A stretch of DNA of 35,490 nucleotides from Nitrospina sp. (lineage in GTDB: Bacteria > Nitrospinota > Nitrospinia > Nitrospinales > VA-1), in the NCBI GenBank assembly GCA_018664975.1, contig JABIXH010000255.1, positions 1 through 35,490 of the forward strand, written 5' to 3'. This document shows positions 4,860-27,344 of the stretch, in pieces (within the stretch, counting starts at the first letter, position 1; each line of letters opens with the position of its first letter). A program made the position numbers and the translations under genes. The notes under the pieces were generated by a model, which did no database searches, was not told where the DNA came from, and saw nothing but the letters and a program-made list of their open reading frames with translations.

Positions 4860-5885
4860 ATGACAGATTTTCTTAAACTAGCTAAAAACGGTTTTAAATT
4901 ATATGGGCTTGGGCAAAGGGTTCCCCTTTTTGTTCTCTGGCTCTTGACCAACCGCTGTAATATACGTTGTGTTTACTGCAATATACCCTACCGGGAATAC
5001 AAAGAGCTAGATACAAAAAGATCGCTGGAAGTCTTGGATGAAATGGCCGAAGCCGGAACAGTCCGCGTGGGAATGTATGGTGGAGAGCCCCTGGTAAGAA
5101 AAGATATTTATGCCCTTGTCAAGCGGGCTAAAGAAAATGGGCTCATAACACACCTTTATACCAATGGAGCCTTGGTTGAAAGAAACCTAGATACTATTAA
5201 ACAGCTTGACGGAGTTTTTATTTCGCTGGATGGTCCTGAAGAGATTCATGACAAATATAGAGGAAAAGGAACCTTTCAGGAGGCCATGAGGGCTATAGAA
5301 GTCTGTAGCAAATATGTTCCTGTATTCATAATGACTGTTTTGACCAATGAGAATAAAAGCTCTATCCAATACATTTCTGACCTATCCAGTCGATATGGAG
5401 CACTAGTAAATTATCAGCCCGTCTTGCAAGTCCCTTCCCTTTCAACCGATGTAACTGATTACAAATTAAGCCATGAAGATTTGAAAGAATGTATAGAAAA
5501 AATTCTAGAACTCAAAAATAAAAACCCGAGAATCGCCCTTTCAAAGACCTATTTAAAGCGAATGCTAAACAGGGAACCCAACTTACAAAAAAAAGGTCAT
5601 CAACTTGGAATCGTAAAATGCTGGAATGGTACAGCATCCTGCCAAATTGATGCGGATGGCTCTGTACATTCATGCCTGCATATCAATGACACTGAAAAAG
5701 CCCTGAACCTGGAAGAAAACAATTTCAAGGAAGCATTCGAATACTTGGGCCATTGTTCATGCACTACATGCAATGTCACATGTAGCGTAGAATATAATTT
5801 TTGGCTGTCATTCAACCCTGAATCAATCATAAACTTGGTTAAACTTATGGCCCAGTCAAAAAATTATCAAAAGGTGGCTAGCTAA
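4860..5885 (+). CDS. Radical SAM protein with Cys-rich (SPASM/twitch-like) C-terminus
   Basis: CNIRCVYC (CxxxCxxC), GGEPL, C-terminal C..CQIDADGSVHSCLH...HCSCTTCNVTCSVEYNF. Confidence 0.92.
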   Translation: MTDFLKLAKNGFKLYGLGQRVPLFVLWLLTNRCNIRCVYCNIPYREYKELDTKRSLEVLDEMAEAGTVRVGMYGGEPLVRKDIYALVKRAKENGLITHLYTNGALVERNLDTIKQLDGVFISLDGPEEIHDKYRGKGTFQEAMRAIEVCSKYVPVFIMTVLTNENKSSIQYISDLSSRYGALVNYQPVLQVPSLSTDVTDYKLSHEDLKECIEKILELKNKNPRIALSKTYLKRMLNREPNLQKKGHQLGIVKCWNGTASCQIDADGSVHSCLHINDTEKALNLEENNFKEAFEYLGHCSCTTCNVTCSVEYNFWLSFNPESIINLVKLMAQSKNYQKVAS

Positions 5886-6009
5886 AAAAAGGAAAATTCA
5901 GTTGAAATTGTCTGAGTCATCACCATGAATATATCCTCTCCTACGTCCCAACCTTAGATTGTCTAAATACTTACTCAAAATGAGATATTCAACAACTATT
6001 GATAAATTG

Positions 6010-6606
6010 CTATTCCAGTTCCTTCCGGGCGACAAAGGAATCATCGTCTGATATATCTAATCGTTCAGACTTCCAGATAATTTTCAACTCTCTCACGAGG
6101 GGCTGAAGTTTCTTGCTCACTCTACGGAGTTGGCGACGAAAATCATCTATCTTTTCTTCAGGATATTCTTCTATTTTGGAAACAGCCTTTTCCAAAGGCT
6201 GATACCGTTCTATTTTGTTACTCAATCGGGCCATCCCTTTCGTAGCGATATTTCCAGCCATCGTCAAACCAATCGAACTCATACCAAATAGTAACAACAA
6301 AATAATTATTGCCTTGGAGGTAAATGTCAGCATTGCAGAATAAAACTTTTTCAATGCAGATGGTTTAAAATTCAATCCAGTCGGACCTGTTGGGTCTGGA
6401 ATAGTAGAACCTAACCCTGCTTCAATAATGTTCTTTATATAATTAGCTTTTGCAAGTTGAAGTTCTCTGTACCCTTCATCAATGCTCACATTACGTGTAA
6501 GTAACCCAAGCTCTGGAATAGAAAGAACAAATACCTTTGCCTCTTCTCTAACGAGAACATTATAGTTTTGATATTGATTAGGTTCTTTAGTCTGATCGTT
6601 TTTCAT
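6010..6606 (-). CDS. Membrane-anchored protein with HicB-like N-terminal domain
   Basis: N-terminus YNVLVREEAKVFVLSIPELGLLTRNVSIDEGYRELQLAKANYIKNIIEAG resembles HicB antitoxin fold; TM segment AIIILLLLFGMSSIGLTMAG, then charged coiled-coil-like tail. Confidence 0.6.
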   Translation of the reverse strand: MKNDQTKEPNQYQNYNVLVREEAKVFVLSIPELGLLTRNVSIDEGYRELQLAKANYIKNIIEAGLGSTIPDPTGPTGLNFKPSALKKFYSAMLTFTSKAIIILLLLFGMSSIGLTMAGNIATKGMARLSNKIERYQPLEKAVSKIEEYPEEKIDDFRRQLRRVSKKLQPLVRELKIIWKSERLDISDDDSFVARKELE

Positions 6607-6633
6607 CGAAAAGTCCTCTAGCTATGGCATGAA

Positions 6634-7920
6634 TTATAGGTACCAAAGGGGTGGCATGGATAGCCAATATGCCAGCAATTGAGAGCCCGACACAAAAAAA
6701 GTGAAAACACATGAAATGAAAACAAATACACCTGAATACAAACTAAAAACTTCCAACCATGCCGGCAGTAAAGCGAACAATGCCAAAATCAATGGCCAGG
6801 CAAGATACAATTGAAACGAATAAGAGTGAATAATAACATTTTGACTAAATAAAAATGCAAAACACAGAAAACAACCTAAACCCGACAAAAGGATTAATTG
6901 CTGTGAAAAATAAAGCTTTTTCTTTTGAATGAATGCAACGACACCCACTAATGCCAAAAACCCACAAAAAAACAGCGGGTTAGAACCAGGTAAGTTATGG
7001 AGCCATTTATCGGAAAACAAATCCGAATGATTAAAATAATATTTAGTTCCTCCGTCAAACCCCGTCCTGATTAATGGATTACTTGAAGAAAATGAGATAT
7101 TTGGAAATGAATATCGAACCCAAAATAATTGGGTCAAAAGAAGTCCAAAACCTCCCAACGCAGGCAACAGAACATTTTTAAAAATACCATAGAGTTTGAA
7201 TTGGCAAGGCATGGACAATACAAGAAACATGTAATAAGTTGCTAGAAAAAAAACTGCCCCAGACACATCACAACCAGCCATAAAAAACACAACACTACCT
7301 CTTGAAAAGGTAGTTAATAAAGAGGCTCCCTTTCTGAAGTAATGCTCTTCAATAACTAGAAAAAGAATCGCAAATAAAGCTATAGCCGCTTGTTTATAAA
7401 GTCCCCAAACTAATCCAAGGTTTAAGGGAAGTGTCTGATGGATTGTTACCACGCATGCACCCAGCAAAAATGTTTGCATATAAGGTATATTCATATTCAG
7501 GGTTAGGCGCATCGCGAGAAAACCTAATAAAACAGAAGAAATTAAAGGAGTAATCTGATTTGAAAATACCAGCAATCGATGGCTGAACTCCCCTCCAAAA
7601 TAAATATTGACTCTTTGAAGAATGTGTCCAATTTGAAGCCCTATCATGTTAGACGAACCATGAATATTATCAGAAACACCTTTCTCCGCGGGCTTTAAAA
7701 AGCGTAGCCCTCCATGCTTAAAATATCCATGATTAATCCAAACCATAATAGTCTTTTCCGAGCGGGAGTCTAATCGAAGCTTTAATTCTAGATCTGTCCG
7801 ATCGTGAATAATTGCCATTAAGAAGAAAAGTAAAAGGGTCCCATAGATGAAATAAAGAAGAAGTGCCCCACCCCCCCCTTGAGCAATACTTGAACGCCAC
7901 TTAACCATAAAATTTTTCAT
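6634..7920 (-). CDS. Polytopic membrane protein (paralogue of 17968..19254)
   Basis: Many hydrophobic helices; shared W.N.GYF.HGGL and SS.LLGFLAMRLTL motifs with the 428-aa ORF at 17968..19254. Confidence 0.8.
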   Translation of the reverse strand: MKNFMVKWRSSIAQGGGGALLLYFIYGTLLLFFLMAIIHDRTDLELKLRLDSRSEKTIMVWINHGYFKHGGLRFLKPAEKGVSDNIHGSSNMIGLQIGHILQRVNIYFGGEFSHRLLVFSNQITPLISSVLLGFLAMRLTLNMNIPYMQTFLLGACVVTIHQTLPLNLGLVWGLYKQAAIALFAILFLVIEEHYFRKGASLLTTFSRGSVVFFMAGCDVSGAVFFLATYYMFLVLSMPCQFKLYGIFKNVLLPALGGFGLLLTQLFWVRYSFPNISFSSSNPLIRTGFDGGTKYYFNHSDLFSDKWLHNLPGSNPLFFCGFLALVGVVAFIQKKKLYFSQQLILLSGLGCFLCFAFLFSQNVIIHSYSFQLYLAWPLILALFALLPAWLEVFSLYSGVFVFISCVFTFFVSGSQLLAYWLSMPPLWYL

Positions 7921-8293
7921 GCTATAACCATCATCCCGACTATTATCAATGTCCCAAGTAAAAATATTAGAAGACGTTCGAAATTATTGTTCGTGACTAA
8001 TCAATAATTTTCATTAAAGCAGTCAATATCACTAATAATAATTTACTCAGCTGAGGCACTTAGCTTTCCGATTAAGAAGCTAAACGCTATATTGATTTCA
8101 AATCAAATTCTGATGAAAACACAGGTTTTTAGAATTTGAAATTAAATACAGCAGAATATTAACAGGTTCAAATACTTGGAGGGTACATATTTATGGTGGT
8201 CACCACAAATTTTCTTAGATAAGTTTGAAGCTATTGAAAAACACAAATCATATTAAATTCAGAATTAAATTTAATAAATAAATCCGGTTCAAA

Positions 8294-9859
8294 TTAACTG
8301 CGGATAAAGCTTTTTATAACCCTGAATCCCATGGGAATCATTTTTCTAAAAGAAAATATTCCCAAGTATCCACCAAAATTCATAATAGTCACATTTAAAG
8401 GAGTTATATATTTATAACTGAGTTCCCTAAACAGTTTGAATTTGGTTAAATATTTAATTATGCCAATCGCCGAACGCACATAATTTAAGAGGAAGGTATA
8501 GTTCTGCATTGTTACCATTCTCTGCATCTCTTCACCTTTAATTGAAGCCCGGTTTATATAAAGATCGCCCTCATCCTCTGTATTATATTCTTCCACCAAA
8601 AGATCATTCTCCAGGCAATAGTCATACATAGCCGTCCCTTTATAGGGAACCAATATATTGGTACACATTACAACCTTGTGCGTATTAGCGAAATTAAAAA
8701 TTTCCTCACAATCTTTTAGAGTTTGCGTTGGAATCGAAAACATATTCAACATCACAACTTTAATATTCTTTTTATGCAAATTAGCAACAACTTTGGCGAA
8801 CTCATCATTGGTATATTTGGGTCGCAAAAGGATTTCATTTCGGATTCGTTCGTTTGTCGTTTCCATTGCGATTCGGGCTAGTCGAGCCTTTCCTTCAGCA
8901 AGTTTCTCAACAATATCCTCACTAAGAGTATTAACGGTTGCCTGATATAGAAAGGGTAAATTCACTTTTTCTATATAAAGATCCATAAAGGCAAGAAACC
9001 ATTTTTTGCTGATAGTTAGATTATCATCGGCAAATGAAATAGCTTCTGCTGGATATTGCTTTAATGTAGTAACTAATTCTTCAATCGCTTGCTCTGGGCT
9101 TCGGAACATTAATTTGACCGAACCCTGAGACTCGAATTTATCATTAAATTTCGAATTATGACAATAGGTGCATTTATACGGGCAACCCACGGACAGCAAA
9201 AAACGCCGAACCTGCATATTTCGTAGAAAAGAGAATTTTTCATAATAAATTTCTCTATTAGACTTTGGGCTTAGGTCAAAATCTTCGACAAATTTTGCTT
9301 CAAATGGGTCGTTTATGTCGAACACAATATTGTGAAAGTTTTTCTTATTTTTATAATGCCCCTGCGCAATCCATTCTGAAAAATAAAATTCACCCGCCCC
9401 AACACAAATAAAGTCAACGGCGGTCATATCAATAGATTCATAATTCAGAGTAGGGAAAGGACCTCCAAGAATTATTATTTTATCCGGGTCTATGCTTTTT
9501 ATTCTCCTAACCAATCCAATTACTCTTTGGTAATCCGTATTACAACAATAAAAGCCTATTATTGAAAAATCCTTAAAATCCTTATCTATTTGATCGATAA
9601 AGCGATCATCATCATTAACTATTTCAACATCATGGGGAATCTTATTTTCGTTTAGCCGAGTGGACAATATCATGTAGGAATAGTATTCCAGAGCATCGAA
9701 TTGACATAACAGGACCGGGGGCCTTTGAACCGATTCATTCCCATTAATTATTCCTGACTTATAAGGGTTTAAATCGATATCCACCATTTTCCCCTGATTC
9801 TGACTCCTTACTGGCCGTCCCAGGGAAGGAAGCATACTTAAGTCTGTATTTTCATTCAT
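8294..9859 (-). CDS. B12-binding-like domain radical SAM protein
   Basis: N-terminal Rossmann-like region with IIILGGPFPTLNYE..AVDFICVGAGE, then CPYKCTYC. Confidence 0.9.
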   Translation of the reverse strand: MNENTDLSMLPSLGRPVRSQNQGKMVDIDLNPYKSGIINGNESVQRPPVLLCQFDALEYYSYMILSTRLNENKIPHDVEIVNDDDRFIDQIDKDFKDFSIIGFYCCNTDYQRVIGLVRRIKSIDPDKIIILGGPFPTLNYESIDMTAVDFICVGAGEFYFSEWIAQGHYKNKKNFHNIVFDINDPFEAKFVEDFDLSPKSNREIYYEKFSFLRNMQVRRFLLSVGCPYKCTYCHNSKFNDKFESQGSVKLMFRSPEQAIEELVTTLKQYPAEAISFADDNLTISKKWFLAFMDLYIEKVNLPFLYQATVNTLSEDIVEKLAEGKARLARIAMETTNERIRNEILLRPKYTNDEFAKVVANLHKKNIKVVMLNMFSIPTQTLKDCEEIFNFANTHKVVMCTNILVPYKGTAMYDYCLENDLLVEEYNTEDEGDLYINRASIKGEEMQRMVTMQNYTFLLNYVRSAIGIIKYLTKFKLFRELSYKYITPLNVTIMNFGGYLGIFSFRKMIPMGFRVIKSFIRS

Positions 9860-9873
9860 AGCTATTACACTCT

Positions 9874-11445
9874 TTATCTCGAAATCAAGTTTTGTCTTAA
9901 CAACCGTGACTTATGATACCCAAACATCACCCAGGCCGGGAAATTACTGTAATCACCAAATCGGACAGAATCTATAGCCCTACGGATTAACATGGCTCTG
10001 TAAAGGAATGTTTTCAGCTTTGGAAATTTTTTCTCTTCTTTTCCTGATATAAATTTTTTCAATATTTTAAGTAGGAATGGAGAAGGTTTTAATATTGCAA
10101 AAACACTGAGTAAATTATTCAACGCATGCGGTTTATATGAAAACATATATTCCTTATCGAATTGCTCAGCCACAAACTTATCGTCTCCCTGCTCTCTCGA
10201 AAGCGCTGTCCCGGGCATAAAGTGCATAGAAAAAAGACTCAACGTAAAAGGCCCATTCAGGCTATGAAGGAAATCAATGGTCTGGTATAATTGATCTTTG
10301 GATTCAAGGGGGTTATCAATGATCATTTCAAATGCAGGGGCAACCATTTTATCCTTGAACTTGGATAGGATTTGCGTTGTTTTCCGAAGGTCTTTGGTTT
10401 TGGCTGGACGTTTAAAAAACTCCAGCATTTCATCATTGCCTGACTCAAATCCCATCTTGATTCGGACGAGCCCCGCATCTGTAAGCACCTTCATTTTTTC
10501 TTCACGGATGGTGGCTGGATTGGTTCCGCTAAGAATGAATTTCAACCCCGTTTCGGGAAACAACCTGCCAAATTCTTTCAGCTCTTCCAAACTCCTTCCC
10601 ATAAAATCACTGTCATAAAATATCACATAATCAATAGCAAACCTTTTTTGCACCTCTTTGATCTCATTGATCATATAAGCAGGAGAAGGTCCTCGAAATT
10701 GTGCGTATTCGGGATTCATATCATTCAGAAGATCCTGCGAACAGAAGGAACAACGGTAGGGACACCCTACGGACCATATTGTGTTATAAACCGTGCCTAC
10801 CTGCTTATAAAAAATCTTTTCAGTTAATGGGATGACATTTTCATCCGCAGCGCTGTAGATATAATTATTATCCAGGGTATAGTCCATCAGAGCCCGGTCT
10901 TCCATCTGCTCCTTGGTCATCAATTCCCTATCCGGGTTTTTGGTTATTTTACCTTTGATATTGGTCCAAGTGCCTTCTAGCCCTTCCAGACTCTCACCGT
11001 TTTTAACCCTGTTCAGAAAATCTACAAAAATCAGTTCCCCTTCTCCAATGGCGATGGCATCTGCAAACTCAATCGCATCTTCAGGAAAGATGGTTGGATG
11101 GTAACTGCCCAATATGATCTTGATATCGGGGTTCAATTCCTTCACTTTTTCACACAATGCCTTGCAGAGGTTTCGCTGTACACTCATTACGGAAAAAGCA
11201 ACAACATCTCCCTTGGACAAATGTTGCGCCAAGGCATTTACTTTTTCTTCATCAGAAATAAAATTTACCCCGAATCCTTCACCTGTTTTTTGTCTCCACC
11301 AGCTCCCAGAATGCGTGTTTTCACGAAAGTCGTCTAAAAAGTAAATTGAATCAACGTCAAAGCCAGCTTTTTTTGCAACAGCCACAACGCGCCTAAATCC
11401 GATAGATAATATATTTCTATCCATACTGACAGCGTATACTTTCAT
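9874..11445 (-). CDS. B12-binding-like domain radical SAM protein
   Basis: IKIILGSYHPTIFPEDAIEFADAIAIGEGE followed by CPYRCSFC. Confidence 0.92.
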   Translation of the reverse strand: MKVYAVSMDRNILSIGFRRVVAVAKKAGFDVDSIYFLDDFRENTHSGSWWRQKTGEGFGVNFISDEEKVNALAQHLSKGDVVAFSVMSVQRNLCKALCEKVKELNPDIKIILGSYHPTIFPEDAIEFADAIAIGEGELIFVDFLNRVKNGESLEGLEGTWTNIKGKITKNPDRELMTKEQMEDRALMDYTLDNNYIYSAADENVIPLTEKIFYKQVGTVYNTIWSVGCPYRCSFCSQDLLNDMNPEYAQFRGPSPAYMINEIKEVQKRFAIDYVIFYDSDFMGRSLEELKEFGRLFPETGLKFILSGTNPATIREEKMKVLTDAGLVRIKMGFESGNDEMLEFFKRPAKTKDLRKTTQILSKFKDKMVAPAFEMIIDNPLESKDQLYQTIDFLHSLNGPFTLSLFSMHFMPGTALSREQGDDKFVAEQFDKEYMFSYKPHALNNLLSVFAILKPSPFLLKILKKFISGKEEKKFPKLKTFLYRAMLIRRAIDSVRFGDYSNFPAWVMFGYHKSRLLRQNLISR

Positions 11446-11459
11446 AAACCTATAAACCC

Positions 11460-12533
11460 TTAGACGTTAGCAGTACTACTATTAATCAAGGTGCTTCGTC
11501 CGTTTCTTTTTCCAACGAACTTCAGCCCATTAACAACAGATTCCAACTTAAAACTAAAAAGATTATTGAACTCACTGGAGCAACTACAAAAATGGCAGGG
11601 CAATTCCTGCAATTTATTCCATGCTTCATCTATCCCATGTTCCTTGATAGAGTATGCAAAACCTTCCTGACCATATTGAACTGCGCATGGATGCAACATT
11701 CCGCTTGAATCCAGCCAGCAAACAAGGTCTCCCATAACACATTTTGGAAATTCCATTTTACGGACCGAATCATTTGATGAAATATAGCTACTATAGGGAA
11801 AAGACTGGCACCACTGAATAATCCCATCAATAGCCCCATACGAGTTATTAGTAGGCATTCCCGATTCTTTTCGCTTACGAATTTCCTTGTACATATTTAT
11901 AATTTTTTCGTTTTCCCCCAAGTTTTTCCCTTTAGCGGCACCCGTGGGTCCCGGAATACAAAAATTCAAATAAGTATTAAATTTATTGGCCAATTCTGTT
12001 AAAGGAATCAGGGTATTTTCTACAGTTGCTTCATTGGTAACAACCGAATGCAAATGAAATGGGATATTATTTTCATCACACATTTTCGCAGCCAAGACAA
12101 CTTGTTCATAGGCCCCTTGCCCCCTATAACTATCCATTATTTCCTGATCTCCATCGACACTCAATTGAACCTGATCCAACTTCTTAATGGCGTCAATGTG
12201 TTTGGAAAAGGTATAACTGTTAGTAGTGATTGAGCAATATATATTCTTGGATTTCACATATTCGATAATGTCATCAATTCTTGTGTGTAGCAGGGGCTCG
12301 CCACCTTGCAACATAATTACTCGGGTCCCCAACGAATGAAGCCGGTCAATTATTTCCTTCAAGTCTTCAAAAGGCCAGTCCTTCCCATTTAAGTTATCCA
12401 CTTCAGCATAGCAATATTCACATTTGAGGTTGCATTTACTGGTCACCCCAATAGAAGCAACAATGGGTGTCCTTATCCCAAAAAACTTATACTTCAAAAC
12501 ACTTATTGCGATTCCAATCAAATTTATCAGCAT
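11460..12533 (-). CDS. Radical SAM protein with Cys-rich (SPASM/twitch-like) C-terminus
   Basis: CNLKCEYC, GGEPL, C-terminal C..LVCWLDSSGMLHPCA...PCHFCSCSSEFN. Confidence 0.92.
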   Translation of the reverse strand: MLINLIGIAISVLKYKFFGIRTPIVASIGVTSKCNLKCEYCYAEVDNLNGKDWPFEDLKEIIDRLHSLGTRVIMLQGGEPLLHTRIDDIIEYVKSKNIYCSITTNSYTFSKHIDAIKKLDQVQLSVDGDQEIMDSYRGQGAYEQVVLAAKMCDENNIPFHLHSVVTNEATVENTLIPLTELANKFNTYLNFCIPGPTGAAKGKNLGENEKIINMYKEIRKRKESGMPTNNSYGAIDGIIQWCQSFPYSSYISSNDSVRKMEFPKCVMGDLVCWLDSSGMLHPCAVQYGQEGFAYSIKEHGIDEAWNKLQELPCHFCSCSSEFNNLFSFKLESVVNGLKFVGKRNGRSTLINSSTANV

Positions 12534-12636
12534 ATCTCAACCCAGGAGTCTGGTTCTCTGTATTTCAATTTTTAATAACACTTTCTCGAAAAACTCATTT
12601 CCAGCCAAAGGCCTTAATTCACCAGAAATTTCTACC

Positions 12637-14178
12637 CTATGACCGAAGAGACCATGAAGGAATTTTTCGAAATTTAAGCTTCTTCAAAAAATCTGTTGCA
12701 AAATAAAATGAGTCCTTTAAATAGATATCTAAGGGGAATCCAGTGAAGTGATGTTTGAATCTATATTTTGCTAAAACCTTATAAATAAGGACTAGAGGAT
12801 AAACCAAACGATTAAAAAGGTTTTCCCTCATGATAAAATTCTCATATTTTCTATCCACAAAATAAACCGTGAAATAGATCATATCCAAAAGATTCTTTCT
12901 CTTTTCATCAATCCATGGAAGGTTTTCAGCATTAGACTCCAACCTGAACCGCGCCCAAGTTTCTAAATTAGCAGGAGGAACAAACCCATGCTCCACTGCC
13001 GTATCAAAAAGCGGATTACCGGGATAGGGAGTAAATTGATGAAACCCAGAAATTTGCGCTTGTGGGTTTTCTGTTAAAAGCTTTTCTATCAAGTCAGTTG
13101 AACATTTCAAATCTTCTTCCGTCTCAGTAGGCAGGCCAGAGAAAAAATTATATAAAGGTTCCAATTTTTTATAGTCGGCCAGCTTTTTATTGGCTTCCAA
13201 GACCTCCTCTATATTGATTGCCTTGTCAATCATCTCCAGCATTCTCGGCGATCCAGATTCTACGCCGATATTCATATGCTCCATTCCGACACGCTCAAGA
13301 AGCCTTAATATAGAATCATCCATTCTGAGAATTTCATCAATCCGTACCCCACGAAGTCCCCATTTAATTTTGATATTGCGTCTTTCAACTTCTTCAAAAA
13401 AAGATTTTCCTCGTTTGACGTTTACAAAGAAGTCATCATCAATGATAGAAATATAATCTGGCGAATAAAGCTTCATCACATGTTCTAAATGATCAACGGT
13501 TTTAGACACTTCTTCTGCCTGCCATCGCCGCTCCTTATTGGAAAGCGAGGTAATATAACAAAAGGTGCAATTATGTGGGCATCCCCTACTGGTAATAAAC
13601 GACATCACCTGAAAATCAAAACCGGATCTTTTATAGTTGCCAATATCCACCAAATCATAAGGGGGAATAGGAATAGAGTCCGCATCAAAAGCATGACTGT
13701 CTTCGTTATGGAGTATTTCGTTTTCCGGAGTTTTATAGCTAAGCCCTTTTACCTGACTCAAATCTCCATTGGCATCGAGGGTTTCAACCAATTCCTTAAA
13801 AATAAATTCTCCCTTCCCTCGAACAACTATATCCACCAAATCATGCTCTAGAGTTTGGTCGGCAAGAATGGTAGGGTGAATCCCTCCCCATACAGTAGGA
13901 ACGTTGGCCGTTTCCTTCACCAATCGGCAGGTTTTAAGAGCAAAGTTAATAGGCTCCCCAGTCATCACGGTTAAAGCAACGCAGAGGACTTGACCGGTCT
14001 TTAATTCGGCAATCAATTTCTCTTCAAAATCAGGCTCAACCCTCTGATCAAACAACTTCAACTCATATTTAGAACGATCAACCAAGCAACCCGCATAGAG
14101 GAGGCTAAGAGGCAGGTCTCGTATAAACATGTCATATTTCCCCAAATGGGGCTGAACCAAAATTACTTTTTTCTTCAT
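12637..14178 (-). CDS. B12-binding-like domain radical SAM protein
   Basis: VPTVWGGIHPTILADQTLEHDLVDIVVRGKGE then CPHNCTFC. Confidence 0.92.
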   Translation of the reverse strand: MKKKVILVQPHLGKYDMFIRDLPLSLLYAGCLVDRSKYELKLFDQRVEPDFEEKLIAELKTGQVLCVALTVMTGEPINFALKTCRLVKETANVPTVWGGIHPTILADQTLEHDLVDIVVRGKGEFIFKELVETLDANGDLSQVKGLSYKTPENEILHNEDSHAFDADSIPIPPYDLVDIGNYKRSGFDFQVMSFITSRGCPHNCTFCYITSLSNKERRWQAEEVSKTVDHLEHVMKLYSPDYISIIDDDFFVNVKRGKSFFEEVERRNIKIKWGLRGVRIDEILRMDDSILRLLERVGMEHMNIGVESGSPRMLEMIDKAINIEEVLEANKKLADYKKLEPLYNFFSGLPTETEEDLKCSTDLIEKLLTENPQAQISGFHQFTPYPGNPLFDTAVEHGFVPPANLETWARFRLESNAENLPWIDEKRKNLLDMIYFTVYFVDRKYENFIMRENLFNRLVYPLVLIYKVLAKYRFKHHFTGFPLDIYLKDSFYFATDFLKKLKFRKIPSWSLRS

Positions 14179-14210
14179 TGAGATAGGGTTCTTTCAGCTA
14201 AGGACATTTG

Positions 14211-15353
14211 TCACTCAGACTCAGATCTTGCAAACATTCTTTCCTTCAGGGATGGCGTTTTTTCATCCTTCGCTTTTAACCGATCAGGGTCCAGCTTCCC
14301 GGTGTAAACAGGATGCTCATCCACCAAAACTGGAAACTCCTTGTAATTGGCAATGGGTGCCATAAAATCCTTTATATATTTATGGTCGGAACCAATGAGG
14401 CAATTCGGCGAACGTTGTGCAATCTCCGGGGAAAGCATCATTTTCTCACGAATATCCTTCAGACTATTTTTCCTAAGATTTCCATAAGATACGGGGTTCA
14501 TTGGACAGGTTGCAATATCTCCATATGCACTCACCCCCAACTTCTCTCGGCCTCCAGGACATTCATTTTTCAGAGACATATTTATGTTCCAGTCAGACCG
14601 CATGAAAGGGTTTTCGCCCATCATATGGTTATACATATTCCATTCTTCTGTAGTCACATTGTTTTCCAACTGCCCGGCCCACTCACCCATGGCGCTGGCC
14701 AGGGAAAGAACCAAAGCTACTTTCCTTTCCCTACAGAACTCAATCATATTCTCTATTTTCTTTTTGTCACCATGTCCCGCAACGGTACTGATGGCAATAT
14801 TGTAGCCAAGGTTCTTAGACCATTGAATGCAGCGAATTACCTGTGCATAATGCCCCTGATAACCGCGAATCTTGTCATTCTCGTCTGGGTCTAAAGAATC
14901 CAGACTGTAGTGAATAGTGCTGAGACCCGCCTCCTTAAGCCTTGCTAGCCTGCTCTCATTCAAGGCAATAGCATTTGTAGTCATGCACACAATATGTTTT
15001 TTGGCTTCAACGGCCTCAAGAACCTCAACCAAGTCCTTGCGCAAAGTAGGCTCCCCTCCTGAAATTATTGATGAAAAGGCTCCCAGGCTTTTAGCTTCCT
15101 GCCAAATACTTCTTATTTCTTCCAGAGACAACTCGTCTTCAGAGTTGCTAACATTTTGCGTAGAATAGCAAAACTCACACTCTGACTGACAATCAGTATT
15201 AACAGAAAACTCAATAGTTCTAAGCGTAGGCCGCTTTAAAACAAGGGTACTAAAATAGCCCCATCCCACCCTAATAATCAAATGGGGTTTCTTCATTAAT
15301 AGGGTACTATGCCCCAGCATACGTTTAAATATACTAAACAGGTCTTTAATCAT
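14211..15353 (-). CDS. Radical SAM / SPASM-domain protein
   Basis: CQSECEFC, SGGEPTLRKDL, C-terminal CPGGREKLGVSAYGDIATCPMNPVSYGNL. Confidence 0.92.
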   Translation of the reverse strand: MIKDLFSIFKRMLGHSTLLMKKPHLIIRVGWGYFSTLVLKRPTLRTIEFSVNTDCQSECEFCYSTQNVSNSEDELSLEEIRSIWQEAKSLGAFSSIISGGEPTLRKDLVEVLEAVEAKKHIVCMTTNAIALNESRLARLKEAGLSTIHYSLDSLDPDENDKIRGYQGHYAQVIRCIQWSKNLGYNIAISTVAGHGDKKKIENMIEFCRERKVALVLSLASAMGEWAGQLENNVTTEEWNMYNHMMGENPFMRSDWNINMSLKNECPGGREKLGVSAYGDIATCPMNPVSYGNLRKNSLKDIREKMMLSPEIAQRSPNCLIGSDHKYIKDFMAPIANYKEFPVLVDEHPVYTGKLDPDRLKAKDEKTPSLKERMFARSESE

Positions 15354-15457
15354 GCTTTATGGATACCTTATGGTTGGCCGCTCTAAATGCTGATTTAAAG
15401 GTGGTTTAACAAGAAATTAATTTTGTTAAACCCTTATAATTAAATAGCGTCTTACTT

Positions 15458-16342
15458 TCAAATTTCTTTACTGTAAACTATTTTACGTAAAATATACCTA
15501 GCCTCCCCCAATGGCATCGGAAACAGAATTTCTTCCATTTTTTGTGGAAGTATGCGGGAAAGCATTGAAATCCCAAGAGCTAATGATTCCGGCCCAAACT
15601 GTTTAGTTTGCGCAGAAAAATAGGCTAGATCAGTATACTTTACAATATGCGAAAACTCGATGAAATTAAGACCAAACTTCTGACAGACCCAGTTCACCGT
15701 ATATTTGGGAAAAAACACCAAGTGTTCCTCCTTGAAATGAAGCCATGAATTACCCATTAGCATACAGGACCAGTGCCTAGGATCAGGAGTAACCATGCAA
15801 ATTATACCATTATTTTTCAATAGTTTACATATTTCCTCCCAGAATAGAGACGGGTCAGGAATGTGCTCAATTAAGTCCGACATAAATATCACATCAAAAC
15901 TTTCTGGCTCAAACCTTACAGTCCCAAGTGTGCCCTGGACCACCCTTGCATCAGGGTTCTCTTTTTTAGCTATTTCACAAGCCTGAAGTGACAAGTCTAT
16001 TCCGGTCACATTAAAACCCTCCTCAAGGGCCACCTTAAGGAAAGAGCCCATAGCGCAACCTACTTCAAGTACATCCCCTTTCGAAATAAATTTTGCGACA
16101 TGCTTAACATGTTTGCGCATGTTTTTCTCTTTAAGGATTTTCACATGCTCCGGCAAAACATTATTTATCATTCCCCATGAGCGGTAATAATTTTGATCAT
16201 AAAATTCTTGATCTAATGAGGGATATGGAGAAACAAAATGGAGATCACAAAGAGAACAGATGAGAAGTTTTGAACCATAGGTTAGGGTTCGCCAGAATGA
16301 GGTCTCAGTTCCATTACAGAGAGGGCAAGACTTTTTATCCAT
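15458..16342 (-). CDS. Class I SAM-dependent methyltransferase with N-terminal zinc ribbon
   Basis: CPLC...CSLCDLHFVSPYP zinc-ribbon-like start; VLEVGCAMGSFLKVA, FDVIFMSDLIEHIPDP. Confidence 0.92.
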   Translation of the reverse strand: MDKKSCPLCNGTETSFWRTLTYGSKLLICSLCDLHFVSPYPSLDQEFYDQNYYRSWGMINNVLPEHVKILKEKNMRKHVKHVAKFISKGDVLEVGCAMGSFLKVALEEGFNVTGIDLSLQACEIAKKENPDARVVQGTLGTVRFEPESFDVIFMSDLIEHIPDPSLFWEEICKLLKNNGIICMVTPDPRHWSCMLMGNSWLHFKEEHLVFFPKYTVNWVCQKFGLNFIEFSHIVKYTDLAYFSAQTKQFGPESLALGISMLSRILPQKMEEILFPMPLGEARYILRKIVYSKEI

Positions 16343-16460
16343 ATTCGAATTAAAATTTTAAAAGGACCAAAGAAAGGAACAATACACACACAAATTTCAA
16401 AAAAAGCTAACGCACTCTTTTAGAGAAAAACCCAATGGAGAGAGCTTCTTATCTATAATA

Positions 16461-17657
16461 TCAATTTTTGTGGATTAAAATAGGCTCATTCTGGAAAAAC
16501 TTTTCCTCAACGCTTTTAATAACCTTCTCGGGAGATAGCTGTTTAAGGCAAATATTATCCTGACAATGCACTTCTGCTTTGTTGTCGAAAACTATAAGGC
16601 ATGGGCTACAAGGTATGTTCTCAAAAAAACAAATCGAATTTGAGGTAAGGGGTCCATAAAATTCCGGGGTTTCAGGTCCAAAAAACACCACGACATCCTT
16701 ATTATAGGCTGAGGCGATATGTGTAGGAAGGCTATCATTGGTAATTATGAGATTACTAGAATACAGTAATCCGCAATATTCATCTATATCCAATAAACCT
16801 GCAGAGCTAATCACGTTTGACAATTTAATTTTCTGGGTAATATTTTCCACATACTGTTTTTCCTGCTCATTACCAACAAACACAAAAGAATTTTCAGGGT
16901 ATTTATTCGCAAGCTCAGAAATTAGCACAACAAAATGACTGGCCGGCCACCTCCTCAAAGAGGACATATCACTTGCATTAGGGTTAACGACTACTATTTG
17001 CGAATGTTCTGGAACATTCAATTTTTTAAAGCAAGATTCGATATCTCCCGAATGGGGTATATCAAGATTTATATCATTTAGCTTTATGTCTTCATACTTT
17101 GCACCAAGCGCGGCCACCAAAGAGTAAAAAACATGATTAACATGATGATGTGTATTCAAGTAAACTTGATGAGTCAAACTCTTACCACGTGCAACTTGCC
17201 TCAGGTGATACCCAACACGAACCTTGGAAAAAGATAACAGAGAAAGCAGGCTAGTAAAATTCGAAAAGAATTCTGCATCTACAACAACAGTAGGCCGAAT
17301 TGACCATACACGCACAAGATTGCGTAAAACATCAATAGAAAATTCCCAAAAACTCTTGGGACTCAGAGTTAAAATATGATCAATGCATTTTATTTTTAGG
17401 CAAAATTTATAATTACGTTCAAAGGTAAGTAAATGGATCTTGCCATTAGGGTAAAGAGCCTTCAACCCTCTCAAGGCGGGAGTCATCATTAATATGCTTC
17501 CTAAACCAAAAAATTTAATTACAAGAATATTTTTCACCCTTTCCCGAGGAGGGTTAGGCTTTTTCTTATTAAACCGAAAAATAAAAAACAGGTTCAAGAT
17601 ATTTATGATAAACCCACCCAACAAAATATCTACATCCCGCATGAATTTCAATTTCAT
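16461..17657 (-). CDS. Glycosyltransferase family 9 (heptosyltransferase-like)
   Basis: KNILVIKFFGLGSILMMTPALRGLKALYPNGKIHLLT; VVVNPNASD..LRRWP..HF; NDSLPTHIASAYNKDVVVFFGPETPEFYGP. Confidence 0.9.
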   Translation of the reverse strand: MKLKFMRDVDILLGGFIINILNLFFIFRFNKKKPNPPRERVKNILVIKFFGLGSILMMTPALRGLKALYPNGKIHLLTFERNYKFCLKIKCIDHILTLSPKSFWEFSIDVLRNLVRVWSIRPTVVVDAEFFSNFTSLLSLLSFSKVRVGYHLRQVARGKSLTHQVYLNTHHHVNHVFYSLVAALGAKYEDIKLNDINLDIPHSGDIESCFKKLNVPEHSQIVVVNPNASDMSSLRRWPASHFVVLISELANKYPENSFVFVGNEQEKQYVENITQKIKLSNVISSAGLLDIDEYCGLLYSSNLIITNDSLPTHIASAYNKDVVVFFGPETPEFYGPLTSNSICFFENIPCSPCLIVFDNKAEVHCQDNICLKQLSPEKVIKSVEEKFFQNEPILIHKN

Positions 17658-17967: not shown

Positions 17968-19254
17968 CTATCCAATAATATTCAATGGATAATAAAGAGA
18001 ATAGTTTCGAAGTTGCACACAAGACCAACAAAGGGAAAAAACAAAAGAAAGGAGAACAAAAATTCCTGAATTATAATTTAAGATTTCCAACCATCCAGGC
18101 AATAGAGCGAATAGTGCCAAAATCAAAGTGAAAACCAGATAAACCTCATAAGCTTCAGGCAATATAAAAGACTTCGGACCTAATAATAAAAATAATGCGT
18201 AATAGCCTATTCCCGTTGCCAAAAAAACAAAATGAATAGAGTTTTTCTTTTCCCTCCGAACCAACGTCATCACAACAAATGTTGCCAGCAAACCCATCAT
18301 AGTGAGAGCATTCCAGTCTGGCAATAGGGGTACATATCTTTTATTCAATGCCGTAGCTAATTCTTTTATCTGCAGGAATGACTTGTCCATCCCTATCTGA
18401 GACCCTGCCACCTCCCTCATTAACTTAACATCAGGGAAACTGGCTTTAACCCAAAGCAATTGTCCAGCCATCACAATAAATGCCAGAAAAACTGGTAAGG
18501 CAATTTTTTTCATTTCCATTTTAATTGGTTTTTTATCTGGAGAAAAATATCTATTCACAAGACAATAAGCCGCAAAAAAACCTAATGCTCCAATCCATTC
18601 AACAAATACCATGCAAAATACTGAAAGTTTTCGTATACGCTGGAGGGATACACTTTCAGAACCAAGGCCATCAGTCGAATTCTCACAAACCAGAAACAAG
18701 GCCATAAAAAACACAAACAGAGTAGTGGGATAAGTCTCCCAAAAAAACCATAAATTACTTGGAAAAGTCTGATACATGGTCTGCGCACTTAAACCCAGCA
18801 CATAGGCATGAACGGGGCGAATGCCTAAGGGCAGAGTCAAGCGCATGGCAAGAAACCCTAATAAGGCCGAGGAAAGCATAGGGATTAATTGATTATGAAA
18901 AGCTAAAAGACCAAAGCTAAAAGATCCACTCAACCAAATATAAAAACGCTCTAAAAGATGTGCCCCTTGCAAAAATCCCATGCTATATGGGGAGATCATT
19001 GTTTGTGCAGGATCATCAACAAGAGCTTTGCTAAACCATAATCCACCATGAGCAAAGTAGCCTTCATTTTCCCAAAGGAGAATTAAATTGGGCCAACGCC
19101 CTTGCAGTTCGCTCTGAGCCCCATCAATTCCTCGAGAGTGCACCGACAAGAACAACCCAATTAAAACAAGGCTTCCCCACAAAAGAAATACCAAAAACCC
19201 AATATTACCCCCTGAAGAAAATTTATTTTCTAATCGCTTTAATATCACTAACAA
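17968..19254 (-). CDS. Polytopic membrane protein (paralogue of 6634..7920)
   Basis: 428 aa, multiple TM helices, shares ENEGYFAHGGLWFSK and SSALLGFLAMRLTLPLG motifs with 6634..7920. Confidence 0.8.
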   Translation of the reverse strand: MLVILKRLENKFSSGGNIGFLVFLLWGSLVLIGLFLSVHSRGIDGAQSELQGRWPNLILLWENEGYFAHGGLWFSKALVDDPAQTMISPYSMGFLQGAHLLERFYIWLSGSFSFGLLAFHNQLIPMLSSALLGFLAMRLTLPLGIRPVHAYVLGLSAQTMYQTFPSNLWFFWETYPTTLFVFFMALFLVCENSTDGLGSESVSLQRIRKLSVFCMVFVEWIGALGFFAAYCLVNRYFSPDKKPIKMEMKKIALPVFLAFIVMAGQLLWVKASFPDVKLMREVAGSQIGMDKSFLQIKELATALNKRYVPLLPDWNALTMMGLLATFVVMTLVRREKKNSIHFVFLATGIGYYALFLLLGPKSFILPEAYEVYLVFTLILALFALLPGWLEILNYNSGIFVLLSFVFSLCWSCVQLRNYSLYYPLNIIG

Positions 19255-19431: not shown

Positions 19432-19481
19432 TGGTGCCCCCGAGGCGATTCGAACGCCTGACCTACGGATTAGGAATCCGA
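19432..19481 (-). tRNA. Truncated tRNA-Arg(CCT) 3' half, probable attL
   Basis: Minus strand TCGGATTCCTAATCCGTAGGTCAGGCGTTCGAATCGCCTCGGGGGCACCA: anticodon loop TTCCTAA, T-arm AGGCG-TTCGAAT-CGCCT, acceptor CGGGGGCACCA. No matching 5' half (GCCCCCG...) follows. Confidence 0.85.
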
Positions 19482-19703
19482 AAAGCACCACTTTCCTTGA
19501 CTTTCCCGTATCATCCTAATATCATATAAATGTAACTAAACAAAAGCCTTCCTGTTTCATTCGGTTTGAAACGGGATGCAACGGGAAAGCGTTTTAGTGG
19601 TACAGGAGTGGTACAAACTGGGTTACGGAATGTAAAGCGGATTAAATAACTCCAGTACGATATCAGCCCTGCCAGCCCCCTCGAGAAATACTAAAATACA
19701 TTT

Positions 19704-20957
19704 ATGGCTAAGTCAAACGAATCAAAAACTACATGGGTGCAAACCAAGCATGCAGGGGTGAGATACCGTGAGCACCCTACCCGTAATTTCAAACGCCGCC
19801 CTGACAGATATATCGTTATTCGATATAACCGGGAAGGGAAACTCACGGGAGAAGCTGTAGGTTGGGAAACTCAGGGGGCCAACTTTCTGGATGCGGTGAA
19901 AACCCGAAATCAGATACTTCAAAACATAAGACACGGAGAGGGCTATCAGTCTTTAAAGGAAAAGCGTGGACTGGAAAATACACGGCGGGATCAGTTAGAA
20001 GAGGAAAGGCTGGATTTAGAGCGTGAAAATATTCCCCTTGATGTGTTTGCCGAAAAGTACCTTGAATGGGCGCAGTTGAACAAGAAATCATGGCGTGATG
20101 ACAAGACGCGGTACTATAAACATATTGCCCCTTTGATGGGACAAAGATCTGCAAAGGAAATCCTTGTCCTTGATATCGAAAGGCTGAAACAAAAGCTGTC
20201 GAAAAAAAAGGTGAAAGGAAAACCCATTTCACAAGTTACGGTTAAACATTGCCTGGTTCTTGTTAGACAGATATTCAACCGAGCTATTGGATGGGGGCTG
20301 TTTCAAGGTCCAAACCCTGTAACCAGTACGATCAAAGCCCACAAGGGCTTCTTGAAGGTTCAAGATAATAAAAGGTTAAGGTTTTTGTCTCATGAAGATG
20401 CAAGGAGCCTTTTAGCTGAGGTTAAGAAAACCAGTGAGCAGACTCACGATATCTGCCTGCTATCCCTTCAAACCGGCATGAGAATGGGAGAGATATTTTC
20501 TTTGAAGTGGCAGGAGATTGATTTAAAGAACGGGATAATTCATATCCGGGACGCAAAGAACAATCATACTCGGCAAGCGTATATTACTCCCACATTGAAT
20601 GCGATGTTTTCAGCTAAGGAAAATCCTTTAAGAACTGCACTTGTATTCCCTGCGCGTGGCGGTGGGCGTATCAGTCAGATGTCAGACACCTTTGACCGTG
20701 CCGTGAACAAGCAGGGACTCAACAAAGGTGTGAATGATCGAGCTAACAAGATTGTGCCGCACTCACTCAGGCATAGTTTTGCAAGCTGGCTGGCTATGCA
20801 GGGAGAAAGTATTCTGGTAATCAAGGAACTGTTAGGGCACAGGGACTTGTCCATGACACAACGATATGCGCACTTGTTACCTGATACCAAACGACAAGCC
20901 GTTGAACGGTTAGCTCTCAATCAGGAAGAAGCCATTTCTTCGCAAGAAGCAAAATAA
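19704..20957 (+). CDS. int: Tyrosine recombinase / phage-type integrase
   Basis: LQTGMRMGEIFSLKW, HSLRHSFASWLAMQG, LLGHRDLSMTQRYAHL catalytic motifs; adjacent to tRNA fragment. Confidence 0.96.
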   Translation: MAKSNESKTTWVQTKHAGVRYREHPTRNFKRRPDRYIVIRYNREGKLTGEAVGWETQGANFLDAVKTRNQILQNIRHGEGYQSLKEKRGLENTRRDQLEEERLDLERENIPLDVFAEKYLEWAQLNKKSWRDDKTRYYKHIAPLMGQRSAKEILVLDIERLKQKLSKKKVKGKPISQVTVKHCLVLVRQIFNRAIGWGLFQGPNPVTSTIKAHKGFLKVQDNKRLRFLSHEDARSLLAEVKKTSEQTHDICLLSLQTGMRMGEIFSLKWQEIDLKNGIIHIRDAKNNHTRQAYITPTLNAMFSAKENPLRTALVFPARGGGRISQMSDTFDRAVNKQGLNKGVNDRANKIVPHSLRHSFASWLAMQGESILVIKELLGHRDLSMTQRYAHLLPDTKRQAVERLALNQEEAISSQEAK

Positions 20958-21051
20958 ACCAGACCTTATCCGACGGGAGACAGGCCGGGTATCCTTACAC
21001 GGCTTGGTCTGGATCATTTTAAGGAAGCGTTTAAAGGAGACGTGATCAAGT

Positions 21052-22209
21052 ATGAGCCCCCCTAAGAAAACAAAAAGCCCCCCTCAGGCCAGCAAGAAAA
21101 AAACCGCAAAAAGAAAATCACCGGCCAAAGCAAGTAAGAAGAAAGCTACAGAACCTGATAGCGTTCAAGAAAGAAAATATTCGTTCTTGGTCGAAGGTGG
21201 TATCGACGGGACCGTTGGAATGAGGTATACGCGAGAAAGGAAGCACTCTTTCTCGACGAACAAATCATCCAAGAAACAAGAAAGGAAGCACACTTATTAT
21301 ACATATGGTGGGCTTGGAGCCCCAACTGTAAAAATCTGGAACCCAGACGAACTATCAAATCCTATAGTCATTGATGAGGTCAACTACGACCCCAAAAGGC
21401 ACGTAAAATACGATGATGATAATAAATCAATCCCTCAGTTTCCATCCAGAATAAATTACATAGAAAGGATTGAAAAGAGTCTTTGGAGGTGGGAGCCGAC
21501 CACAATGGATGAAGCATGTTGCATACGTTCGCTTTTGTTTGGAAAGGAGTACTGGTTCTTCACAATAGCGGCCTCTAACCCTCAAACACCCCTCCATCCT
21601 TTGGAAAACAATTATGGGTTAGCCAAAGGGCTTCCAGAGTGGAAAAACTTTGAAGATAAAATATTAACGGCACAAATTAAGTTATACAGACAACTCCAGA
21701 TCGCGATTGAAAAGCATGAACTGATAAATATTTCCCATGACAAAGAACGTCCAGCATTTGCCCAAACTGATTTTTTAAAGTGGTTCCAGGGGCTTCACCC
21801 TGCACTCGTTCCTGACCAACTTATAAGCGCAAAAACTTCCATTGAAGAAAGAGCTCGGCTATTAAAGAAAATGCGGACAGACTTTCACTATTGGGTCAAT
21901 ACGGGTGAATACCCAGTTGGAGTTAAGGGAGGAACGGAACCACCTTTAAATCCCACAACTCCTTATGGTCGCAAGCAAATACTTCGCACGGCTTACATAT
22001 CTGAGGCCGCAGAAAAGATTAAGGAAACCACGTCTTTAACTTCCAAGGATTTGCTGGCGGACCCTGACTTGAAGGCATTGATTAGAGACGGTTGCATCAT
22101 TAAGGATGAACGGCCTGATGAAAAAATACTAAAAAAGAACTGGATCCCCGCTGCCAGGAAGGCTGCCGGTGTTATAGGCCGTCCCGGAGCACCAAAGAAA
22201 AAGAAATAA
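21052..22209 (+). CDS. Hypothetical protein with Lys-rich N-terminus
   Basis: 385-aa ORF; low-complexity KKTKSPPQASKKKTAKRKSPAKASKKKA then repeated QERKYSF/RERKHSF/QERKHTYY motifs. Confidence 0.75.
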   Translation: MSPPKKTKSPPQASKKKTAKRKSPAKASKKKATEPDSVQERKYSFLVEGGIDGTVGMRYTRERKHSFSTNKSSKKQERKHTYYTYGGLGAPTVKIWNPDELSNPIVIDEVNYDPKRHVKYDDDNKSIPQFPSRINYIERIEKSLWRWEPTTMDEACCIRSLLFGKEYWFFTIAASNPQTPLHPLENNYGLAKGLPEWKNFEDKILTAQIKLYRQLQIAIEKHELINISHDKERPAFAQTDFLKWFQGLHPALVPDQLISAKTSIEERARLLKKMRTDFHYWVNTGEYPVGVKGGTEPPLNPTTPYGRKQILRTAYISEAAEKIKETTSLTSKDLLADPDLKALIRDGCIIKDERPDEKILKKNWIPAARKAAGVIGRPGAPKKKK

Positions 22210-22317
22210 CCCCACTCCCCCCATTGCCAATAATTCCCCGATAGCGCAAAAACCTTGTTGGAGAATTATACGTTATAGCCCTATTTAAAGCCTCCAAAAA
22301 ACCCCCAAACATAAAGA

Positions 22318-22347
22318 AACCCCCGATGGGTTGTTCGGGGGTTTTTT
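22318..22347 (+). terminator. Rho-independent terminator
   Basis: ACCCCCGA-tgggttgt-TCGGGGGT followed by TTTTT. Confidence 0.85.
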
Positions 22348-22433
22348 ATTTTCAACAAAGTCTCTAACCTTTATGCATACCCGTCAAGAGGACGGAACAG
22401 GATTCAGCAACCACTTGAGAAAGGTTTCAGGAA

Positions 22434-22631
22434 ATGAAAAAGAACAGGTCAATTTGGCCGAAATATGTAGCTCGAAAATGTCTAGCTGACTACTACCCAG
22501 GGCTTTCTGGCAAGACACTTGCCAACCTAGCTCTTGAAGGAAGAGGCCCTCGACATTTTAAGCGGGGACGAAATGTCTACTATCGAACCGAAGAACTCGA
22601 CAAGTTCATAGAGGAAGGAGATTCTAAGTGA
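22434..22631 (+). CDS. Small HTH / excisionase-like DNA-binding protein
   Basis: 65 aa: WPKYVARKCLADYYPGLSGKTLANLALEGRGPRHFKRGRNVYYRTEELDKFIEE, typical of MerR-like/AlpA-Xis helix-turn-helix proteins. Confidence 0.75.
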   Translation: MKKNRSIWPKYVARKCLADYYPGLSGKTLANLALEGRGPRHFKRGRNVYYRTEELDKFIEEGDSK

Positions 22632-22646
22632 TAACCAAAAAAGAAA

Positions 22647-22666
22647 CCCCGCCGTGCAGGGCGGGG
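22647..22666 (-). terminator. GC-rich hairpin, terminator-like on minus strand
   Basis: CCCCGCC-gtgcag-GGCGGGG; on the minus strand followed by TTTCTTTTTT. Confidence 0.55.
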
Positions 22667-22817
22667 CAAAGACAAACAATTACTACTCAATCTTATAAAT
22701 ACAGAGTACACGGGTTCCAGGGATATTTCAATATGGAACCAGAGAATAAGCAGTCCCTGTCTCACCTTTACATGTGCCCTGATAAAAAAACAGACCTAAA
22801 ACAGGGAGGGCGTGTTA

Positions 22818-25076: not shown

Positions 25077-25395
25077 CTTTCAATCAGCCTCTCCCCCTGT
25101 ACACTATGTACACGAAGTACACTTAGTAGATGACAATGGGGAAAACTCACCGCTTAGTGAACACGGTATACAGGGGGAGAAGCTGGATATTTTTGCTTCG
25201 GGCACAAAGGAAAACCCCCAGCTTGATCTATTAACCGAGGTTGAACTGGAGGCCTTCAATGGCTGGTACGCTACCTGCCGGAAGCCAAAGTTCAATTTAT
25301 CGCATGAGGAGGCGACCTTAACTTCTTGGCGGTTATTAATCGAGTCTATGGAAAGCATGTGTCGGGATGGCAGGGGGCGGTACAAAAAACCATGA
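25063..25395 (+). CDS. Small hypothetical protein, overlapping primase end
   Basis: 110 aa, ATG overlaps the end of the primase ORF by 14 nt, suggesting translational coupling. Confidence 0.6.
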   Translation: MGWRDFQSASPPVHYVHEVHLVDDNGENSPLSEHGIQGEKLDIFASGTKENPQLDLLTEVELEAFNGWYATCRKPKFNLSHEEATLTSWRLLIESMESMCRDGRGRYKKP

Positions 25396-25448
25396 CATTT
25401 ACAATCGAAAAAACGGCGAGAAGATCTTAAGTAGAGGGGATGTGGTGG

Positions 25449-25679
25449 TTACCCTGTCTTTACGTATCGGGCGATGAGAGCCTTTCTGCCCTTGTCTTGC
25501 AGTTCGGTAATGTCAAAGCCTAACTGTTCGTAAGAGCGTGGGTTAACGTACGCTTGGTGCCCACGCTGTATATCGCTTTTATGTTCGCCGAGGCGGGGGA
25601 ACTTTGAGGCTATGGATAACGCCCTTTTCCAATCGTCTTTTGCCATCAACTTCTTGAGTTTTGAGAGCTTGGTTTCCAT
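25449..25679 (-). CDS. Small phage-associated hypothetical protein
   Basis: METKLSKLKKLMAKDDWKRALSIASKFPRLGEHKSDIQRGHQAYVNPRSYEQLGFD...ALIARY resembles small proteins I associate with prophages; start trimmed to internal Met. Confidence 0.65.
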   Translation of the reverse strand: METKLSKLKKLMAKDDWKRALSIASKFPRLGEHKSDIQRGHQAYVNPRSYEQLGFDITELQDKGRKALIARYVKTG

Positions 25680-25807
25680 GGCTGGAGACCATACCAAGAC
25701 GTCTAAAAATGGCGAGCAGAACTTCGTGAGAATGGCGAGATAAATATTAGCGGCAGAGTAAAAGTGTACCACCAAAAATATTCAAGAACAGGGAGAGAAC
25801 AGGGCAA

Positions 25808-27322: not shown

Positions 27323-27344
27323 AGCCAGTCTCGGTAAAATAAAA

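Follow-up and report, generated by a model that had tools for sequence, protein, structure and literature searches.

What is made by a gene cluster in which radical S-adenosylmethionine (SAM) enzymes are crowded together beside a methyltransferase and a glycosyltransferase? This question is raised by a stretch of 35,490 nucleotides from a Nitrospina species (assembly GCA_018664975.1, contig JABIXH010000255.1; hereafter the window), which is the full length of contig G000:C160 in a metagenome-assembled genome (MAG; G000) of 2.92 Mb that is 78% complete. A first-pass annotation, made from the letters alone, had pointed to six linked radical SAM genes at positions 4860 to 17657. As discussed below, the cluster may be a strain-variable Nitrospinota island for making or modifying a surface glycoconjugate, such as a sugar of the lipopolysaccharide (LPS)/O-antigen type or the headgroup of a glycolipid, a reading that we hold at about even chances and whose chemistry is predicted from gene families. 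Direct support exists for the gene content, the linkage, the purifying selection, the island status, and the recurrent ties to glycosyltransferase and sugar-nucleotide genes.

Conserved unit and its second carrier

The conserved unit consists of five radical SAM genes (8294-15353), a methyltransferase gene, a gene for a glycosyltransferase of family GT9, and two genes for orphan membrane proteins. The features are listed here by position and strand, with protein lengths in amino acids (aa), and are named by their first coordinate throughout; G008 is the only other genome in which the block was found.

4860..5885, plus strand: radical SAM enzyme, 341 aa, four-cysteine twitch-like C-terminus; on the island, outside the conserved block (PF04055, 99 bits)
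6010..6606, minus strand: small protein with a membrane anchor, 198 aa, no family (no Pfam match; a 32% identical relative adjoins the 6634 homologue in G008)
6634..7920, minus strand: polytopic membrane protein, 428 aa, no family, paralogue of 17968 (only in G000 and G008 among 120 genomes)
8294..9859, minus strand: B12-binding radical SAM enzyme, 521 aa, conserved block (PF04055 and PF02310; 81% identical in G008; dN/dS 0.04, dS saturated)
9874..11445, minus strand: B12-binding radical SAM enzyme, 523 aa, conserved block (PF04055 and PF02310; 87-88% in G008)
11460..12533, minus strand: radical SAM enzyme, 357 aa, four-cysteine twitch-like C-terminus, conserved block (PF04055; 86% in G008)
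12637..14178, minus strand: B12-binding radical SAM enzyme, 513 aa, conserved block (BchE-like profile far under cut-off; 96% in G008)
14211..15353, minus strand: radical SAM enzyme, 380 aa, degenerate three-cysteine SPASM/twitch region, conserved block (98% in G008; dN/dS 0.02)
15458..16342, minus strand: class I SAM methyltransferase, 294 aa, zinc ribbon at the N-terminus (PF13489; 84% in G008; dN/dS 0.14)
16461..17657, minus strand: GT9 heptosyltransferase-like glycosyltransferase, 398 aa (PF01075, 69.4 bits against a cut-off of 22; 55% in G008)
17968..19254, minus strand: polytopic membrane protein, 428 aa, orphan family specific to the cluster (77% in G008, absent elsewhere)
19435..19480, minus strand: 3' half of tRNA-Arg(CCT), attachment-site remnant, outer island edge
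19704..25775, plus strand: integrase/DUF3987 mobile element, neighbouring and outside the pathway (99.3% identical to an element in G003)

The distribution sample comprised 77 Nitrospinota genomes. Copies more than 80% identical to the five radical SAM proteins were found in only two of them, the window genome and the MAG Nitrospina sp. SI036_bin78 (G008) of the same genus, which carries the same block. The remaining radical SAM matches in Nitrospinota are 24-39% identical and scattered, and homologues of 9874 (32-35% identical) occur in five further Nitrospinota genomes. Because many of the sampled genomes are incomplete MAGs, the absence of the block across Nitrospinota is a statement of lower grade, and little evidence of absence comes from a contig scan for further loci, in which only two patterns were used and three loci came up. 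In G008 (locus L041) the order starts with the membrane protein (77%), a 110-aa protein, a further membrane protein (43%), an extra B12-dependent radical SAM gene, the GT9 gene (55%) and an extra methyltransferase gene, continues with the methyltransferase (84%), 14211 (98%), 12637 (96%), 11460 (86%), 9874 (88%) and 8294 (81%), and ends with a GT2 gene and another radical SAM gene, followed by a pilin gene. The methyltransferase and the five radical SAM genes thus keep an identical order in both genomes, while the edges are mosaic.

Within the radical SAM block the intergenic gaps measure 14-104 nucleotides, and the tight packing noticed at the outset, with 14-nucleotide gaps around 9874 and 11460, is borne out. 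Between the two carriers, the ratio of nonsynonymous to synonymous substitution rates (dN/dS) is 0.02-0.09 for the radical SAM genes (dS being saturated for 8294), 0.14 for the methyltransferase and 0.19 for the membrane protein; the block is under strong purifying selection. Five radical SAM genes within 7 kb lie far above the genome-wide density of G000 (53 matches per 2.92 Mb), which, together with these low ratios, argues that the gathering is not due to chance.

The extent first proposed for the locus holds for its five-gene core and needs correction at both ends: 4860, which had been counted within the set, has no counterpart in G008, and 17968-19254 on the right also belongs. The refuting condition named in the first-pass annotation, that the six radical SAM genes are unlinked in related genomes, came out in favour of linkage for five of the six in the one close relative; homologues elsewhere stand alone or in other combinations.

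A rare island beside a tRNA-Arg site

What the first-pass annotation had missed is the setting of the cluster, which forms a rare island next to a tRNA-Arg site. The GC content of the cluster is 38%, compared with 42-45% in the flanks, and its two borders are the 3' half of tRNA-Arg(CCT) and a pilin/pentapeptide segment conserved across the genus and its neighbours. An intact tRNA-Arg(CCT) gene directly adjoins the pilin gene, without the cluster, in G012, G013, and G030. In G003, the pilin gene is followed directly by the tRNA fragment and the same integrase/DUF3987 element as at 19704 in the window, again without the radical SAM cluster, so that this genome presents an empty site. The cluster of G008 likewise ends at a tRNA-Arg fragment, beside a different outer element. 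A 3' fragment at the edge and empty sites in G003, G012, G013, and G030 are the marks of a tRNA-targeted genomic island; a search of the pilin edge for a second tRNA-fragment repeat detected none. From this arrangement the cluster is read as a rare, horizontally acquired, and strain-variable island.

The neighbouring element (19435-25775, of the integrase/DUF3987/DUF5681 type) stands beside the tRNA-Arg 3' fragment and shares 99.3% identity over 6.3 kb with that of G003, another species-level genome of the genus, which indicates recent transfer.

Radical SAM enzymes

All six radical SAM reading frames first noted are present, with PF04055 above cut-off in each (54-99 bits). The three B12-binding-like N-termini are also upheld, as 8294, 9874, and 12637 all match PF02310 together with PF04055 above cut-off and are thus predicted to be of the B12-dependent type. 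The remaining three (14211, 11460, and 4860) had been described as having SPASM/twitch-like C-termini. None of them carries the seven-cysteine SPASM domain with two auxiliary clusters, and with only three to four conserved C-terminal cysteines "twitch-like" is the better term: 14211 matches PF13186 marginally above cut-off and has three such cysteines, and 11460 and 4860 have four in common with the wider family in a family alignment (C265/C283/C313/C316 in 11460, where they are invariant).

None of the six radical SAM proteins reaches the cut-off of a named radical SAM equivalog in NCBIfam (HpnJ, BchE, and others), in keeping with the earlier impression of a linked multi-enzyme pathway unlike known ones. 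Hopanoid or tetrapyrrole synthesis, named at the time as an example of what would overturn that impression, is not matched by any equivalog either. Although the BchE, HpnJ, and ladderane families are among the top NCBIfam profiles for the B12-dependent enzymes of the window, no tetrapyrrole, hopanoid, or fatty-acid genes stand beside these enzymes, and 12637 scores 149 bits against a cut-off of 481 for BchE, 103 against 578 for HpnJ, and 90 against 360 for the ladderane B12-dependent enzyme.

The AlphaFold model of 12637 (mean predicted local confidence, pLDDT, 80) adopts the B12-dependent radical SAM fold, with OxsB, TsrM, AprD4, MgmA, and CysS as nearest structures. The fold and domain order of 12637 resemble those of AprD4 (the apramycin 1,2-diol dehydratase), OxsB, TsrM, MgmA, CysS, and TokK, but sequence identity to these enzymes is 15-19%, and none of them comes with the gene set of the window. 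Prokaryotic viperin (PADLOC pVip) was considered and rejected, as the matches span the shared radical SAM core only (viperin on 11460, 62 versus 180 bits). A scan with Rfam detected no riboswitch, for B12 or otherwise.

Methyltransferase, glycosyltransferase, and membrane proteins

The zinc-ribbon methyltransferase and the GT9 enzyme of the first-pass annotation are confirmed: 15458 is a Methyltransf_23 protein with a CxxC...CxxC motif, and 16461 matches PF01075. Sugar C-methyltransferases of the NovU/TylC3 type combine PF08421, PF13489, and PF08484, of which 15458 has PF13489 and the CxxC...CxxC N-terminus only. Like the GT9 heptosyltransferases of the WaaF/WaaQ type, 16461 matches the WaaF/RfaQ profile in addition to PF01075, but it remains under cut-off (82 versus 135 bits), and its partners are radical SAM genes instead of core-LPS genes.

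The membrane proteins 6634 and 17968 are paralogues (about 33% identical) known from G000 and G008 only. They gave no Pfam match beyond chance level even at E = 10, and their family profile, when compared with membrane proteins from related loci (PMT-type and others), matched none of them. An AlphaFold model of 17968, built from four sequences, was uninformative (pLDDT 38) and was left unused.

Relatives of the GT9 enzyme have a radical SAM gene within about 4 kb in 10 of 13 distinct loci (G000/G008, G056, G117, G040, G072 twice, G115, G073, G074, and G128; those without are in G075, G070, and G067), corresponding to a naive P of 4e-7 at the radical SAM density of the window genome. After related loci were collapsed, the count is 7/8, with P values of 6e-6 at that density and 2e-4 at a generous one. 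Loci with high-GC or overlapping genes (L141, L144, L171, L173, L174, and L176-L178) were rechecked by tblastn. In G056 the GT9 gene (50%), the methyltransferase gene (46%), and a radical SAM gene are side by side, and in G117 the order GT9, methyltransferase, B12-dependent radical SAM is part of a run of genes resembling glycosyltransferases and epimerases.

A methyltransferase like 15458 directly adjoins a relative of 14211 in five of the 11 loci viewed (G220, G125, G345, G340, and G068) and is near without adjoining it in G303; two of the five loci are of the CDP-sugar, O-antigen type. The locus of G125 is a CDP-dideoxyhexose locus with RfbF, RfbG, and RfbH above cut-off as well as NeuB-like and thiamine pyrophosphate-dependent enzymes, and its partner methyltransferase has the full three-domain sugar C-methyltransferase architecture (PF08421, PF13489, and PF08484). 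RfbF is also found in G340 and G301. CDP-3,6-dideoxyhexose/branched-sugar O-antigen loci of the RfbF-RfbG-RfbH type resemble the window in placing relatives of 14211 and 15458 next to each other with glycosyltransferases nearby, but they carry one or two radical SAM genes, whereas the window has five and lacks nucleotide-sugar genes, and the identity is only 26-31%.

Proposed function and alternatives

In the surface-glycoconjugate reading, the twitch-type enzyme 14211 and the methyltransferase 15458 would act as a pair on an activated or lipid-linked sugar, and 11460 together with the B12-dependent enzymes 12637, 9874, and 8294 would perform further radical steps at unactivated carbons, most probably C-methylation, dehydration, epimerisation, or C-C rearrangement. 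Transfer of the sugar to an acceptor would then fall to the GT9 enzyme, and the membrane-linked step may be handled by the polytopic pair. Consistent with this, the only other carrier has the block together with the methyltransferase, the GT9 gene, and both families of membrane protein, and adds a GT2 and a second methyltransferase. The structures that best match the 12637 model also include AprD4, whose substrate is of the sugar type. A surface glycan or glycolipid had already been among the products suggested, and that suggestion is strengthened by the GT9-radical SAM, methyltransferase-radical SAM, PMT, and CDP-dideoxyhexose neighbourhoods elsewhere.

Several points weigh on the other side. 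O-antigen/LPS loci are recognised by nucleotide-sugar enzymes together with Wzx/Wzy or ABC export, none of which was recognised in the window; a gene for nucleotide-sugar synthesis is missing, so that other parts of the genome would have to supply the precursors, and Pfam recognises no Wzx/Wzy or lipid carrier gene. The two membrane proteins match nothing, the relatives of 14211 in sugar loci are only 26-31% identical, so the substrate need not carry over, and GT9 and radical SAM genes both turn up often beside pathways of many kinds. The neighbourhood counts rest on classification by hand, and not all of their loci are independent. A bolder form, which we put forward tentatively and would sooner bet against, is that one lipid-linked or nucleotide sugar passes through all five radical SAM enzymes in turn and becomes a surface sugar of a new kind, carbocyclic or C-alkylated more than once, with 6634 and 17968 as a new family of membrane glycosyltransferases or polymerases.

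The alternative that survives best, albeit as an unlikely one, is a secreted small-molecule natural product, for instance aminoglycoside- or nucleoside-like, with the GT9 enzyme in tailoring and the membrane proteins as exporters. Islands dense in radical SAM genes are typical of natural products, the distribution is rare and mobile, 12637 has four natural-product enzymes (AprD4, OxsB, TokK, and CysS) as top structural matches, and a genome of the same family (G034) has related radical SAM genes with short-chain dehydrogenase/reductase (SDR) and PurH-like genes. However, the window contains no scaffold synthase (polyketide synthase, nonribosomal peptide synthetase, or aminocyclitol synthase), recognisable exporter, or resistance gene, and GT9 is a cell-envelope family with relatives in surface-sugar loci.

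Less probable again is that the product is a modified membrane lipid resembling a hopanoid, a ladderane, or a tetraether, in which case the B12-dependent enzymes would work on hydrocarbon chains and the GT9 enzyme would glycosylate the headgroup. The HpnJ, BchE, and ladderane models that rank among the best profiles for the three B12-dependent enzymes, the tetraether synthase among the PDB matches of 14211, and the presence of wider-family radical SAM genes in lipid A operons elsewhere would fit this idea, but the profile scores are about 3-9 fold below the curated cut-offs and the cluster has no isoprenoid or fatty-acid gene.

A peptide-derived product, also raised in the first-pass annotation, is very improbable: twitch/SPASM and B12-dependent enzymes often mature ribosomally synthesized and post-translationally modified peptides (RiPPs), and the ApyD model scores 114 bits on 12637, but a RiPP cluster is made unlikely by the fact that no gap holds a small open reading frame conserved between both carriers, no precursor, peptidase, or RiPP recognition element family was found, and a GT9 partner is untypical. 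Equally hard to credit is a chance gathering of unrelated radical SAM genes on a low-GC island, since despite a host rich in such genes (53) and edges whose order and partners differ, two genomes keep five of them and the methyltransferase in identical order with short gaps under strong selection.

Novelty and significance

The superfamily of each enzyme is already known, and loci combining radical SAM and glycosyltransferase genes recur widely. The gene set as such appears to be undescribed: the open-access literature yielded nothing on it, on radical SAM enzymes in Nitrospina, or on O-antigen loci rich in such enzymes, which is a weak form of absence. A perspective article (PMC8992657) puts the B12-dependent radical SAM enzymes at about 10,000 sequences and portrays them as a subgroup whose chemistry is a reservoir still largely untapped. 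Five radical SAM genes beside a methyltransferase and a GT9 gene, a short and defined set under strong selection, offer a tractable way into new sugar or lipid chemistry, and the recurrent GT9-radical SAM partnership can be tested across phyla. For marine Nitrospinota, the island also points to surface structures that vary, perhaps under pressure from phages or grazers.

Related loci and neighbouring genes

Some further loci were observed in the course of the analysis. In G040 (Nitrospina sp. SI039_bin56), a fusion of a type I phosphodiesterase/sulfatase-like domain and a methyltransferase (L172:11581-13887) lies between a GT9-radical SAM pair and a B12-dependent radical SAM gene, and in G345 (L213) four twitch-type radical SAM genes and a B12-dependent one are clustered beside a GT9 fragment at the contig end. 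G034 has repeated modules (L083, L084, and L085) of a twitch-type radical SAM enzyme, an SDR, a PurH-like protein (AICARFT/IMPCHase), and an unassigned protein of about 390 aa, two of them also with a methyltransferase and B12-dependent radical SAM enzymes; they may belong to a nucleoside-like pathway, with a putative resemblance to clusters of the formycin/coformycin type. In the unrelated genomes G162 and G289 (L149 and L150), a twitch/SPASM-type radical SAM gene of a related subfamily, with CxxxCxxC near residue 97, adjoins lipid A-like genes (FabZ and LpxA, in L150 also LptF/G- and LpxB-like), as judged by their N-termini only. Also in the window, the genes for ExbD, ExbB, TonB, a BNR-repeat protein, and a TonB-dependent receptor follow one another at 26915-34091 and form a separate uptake locus.

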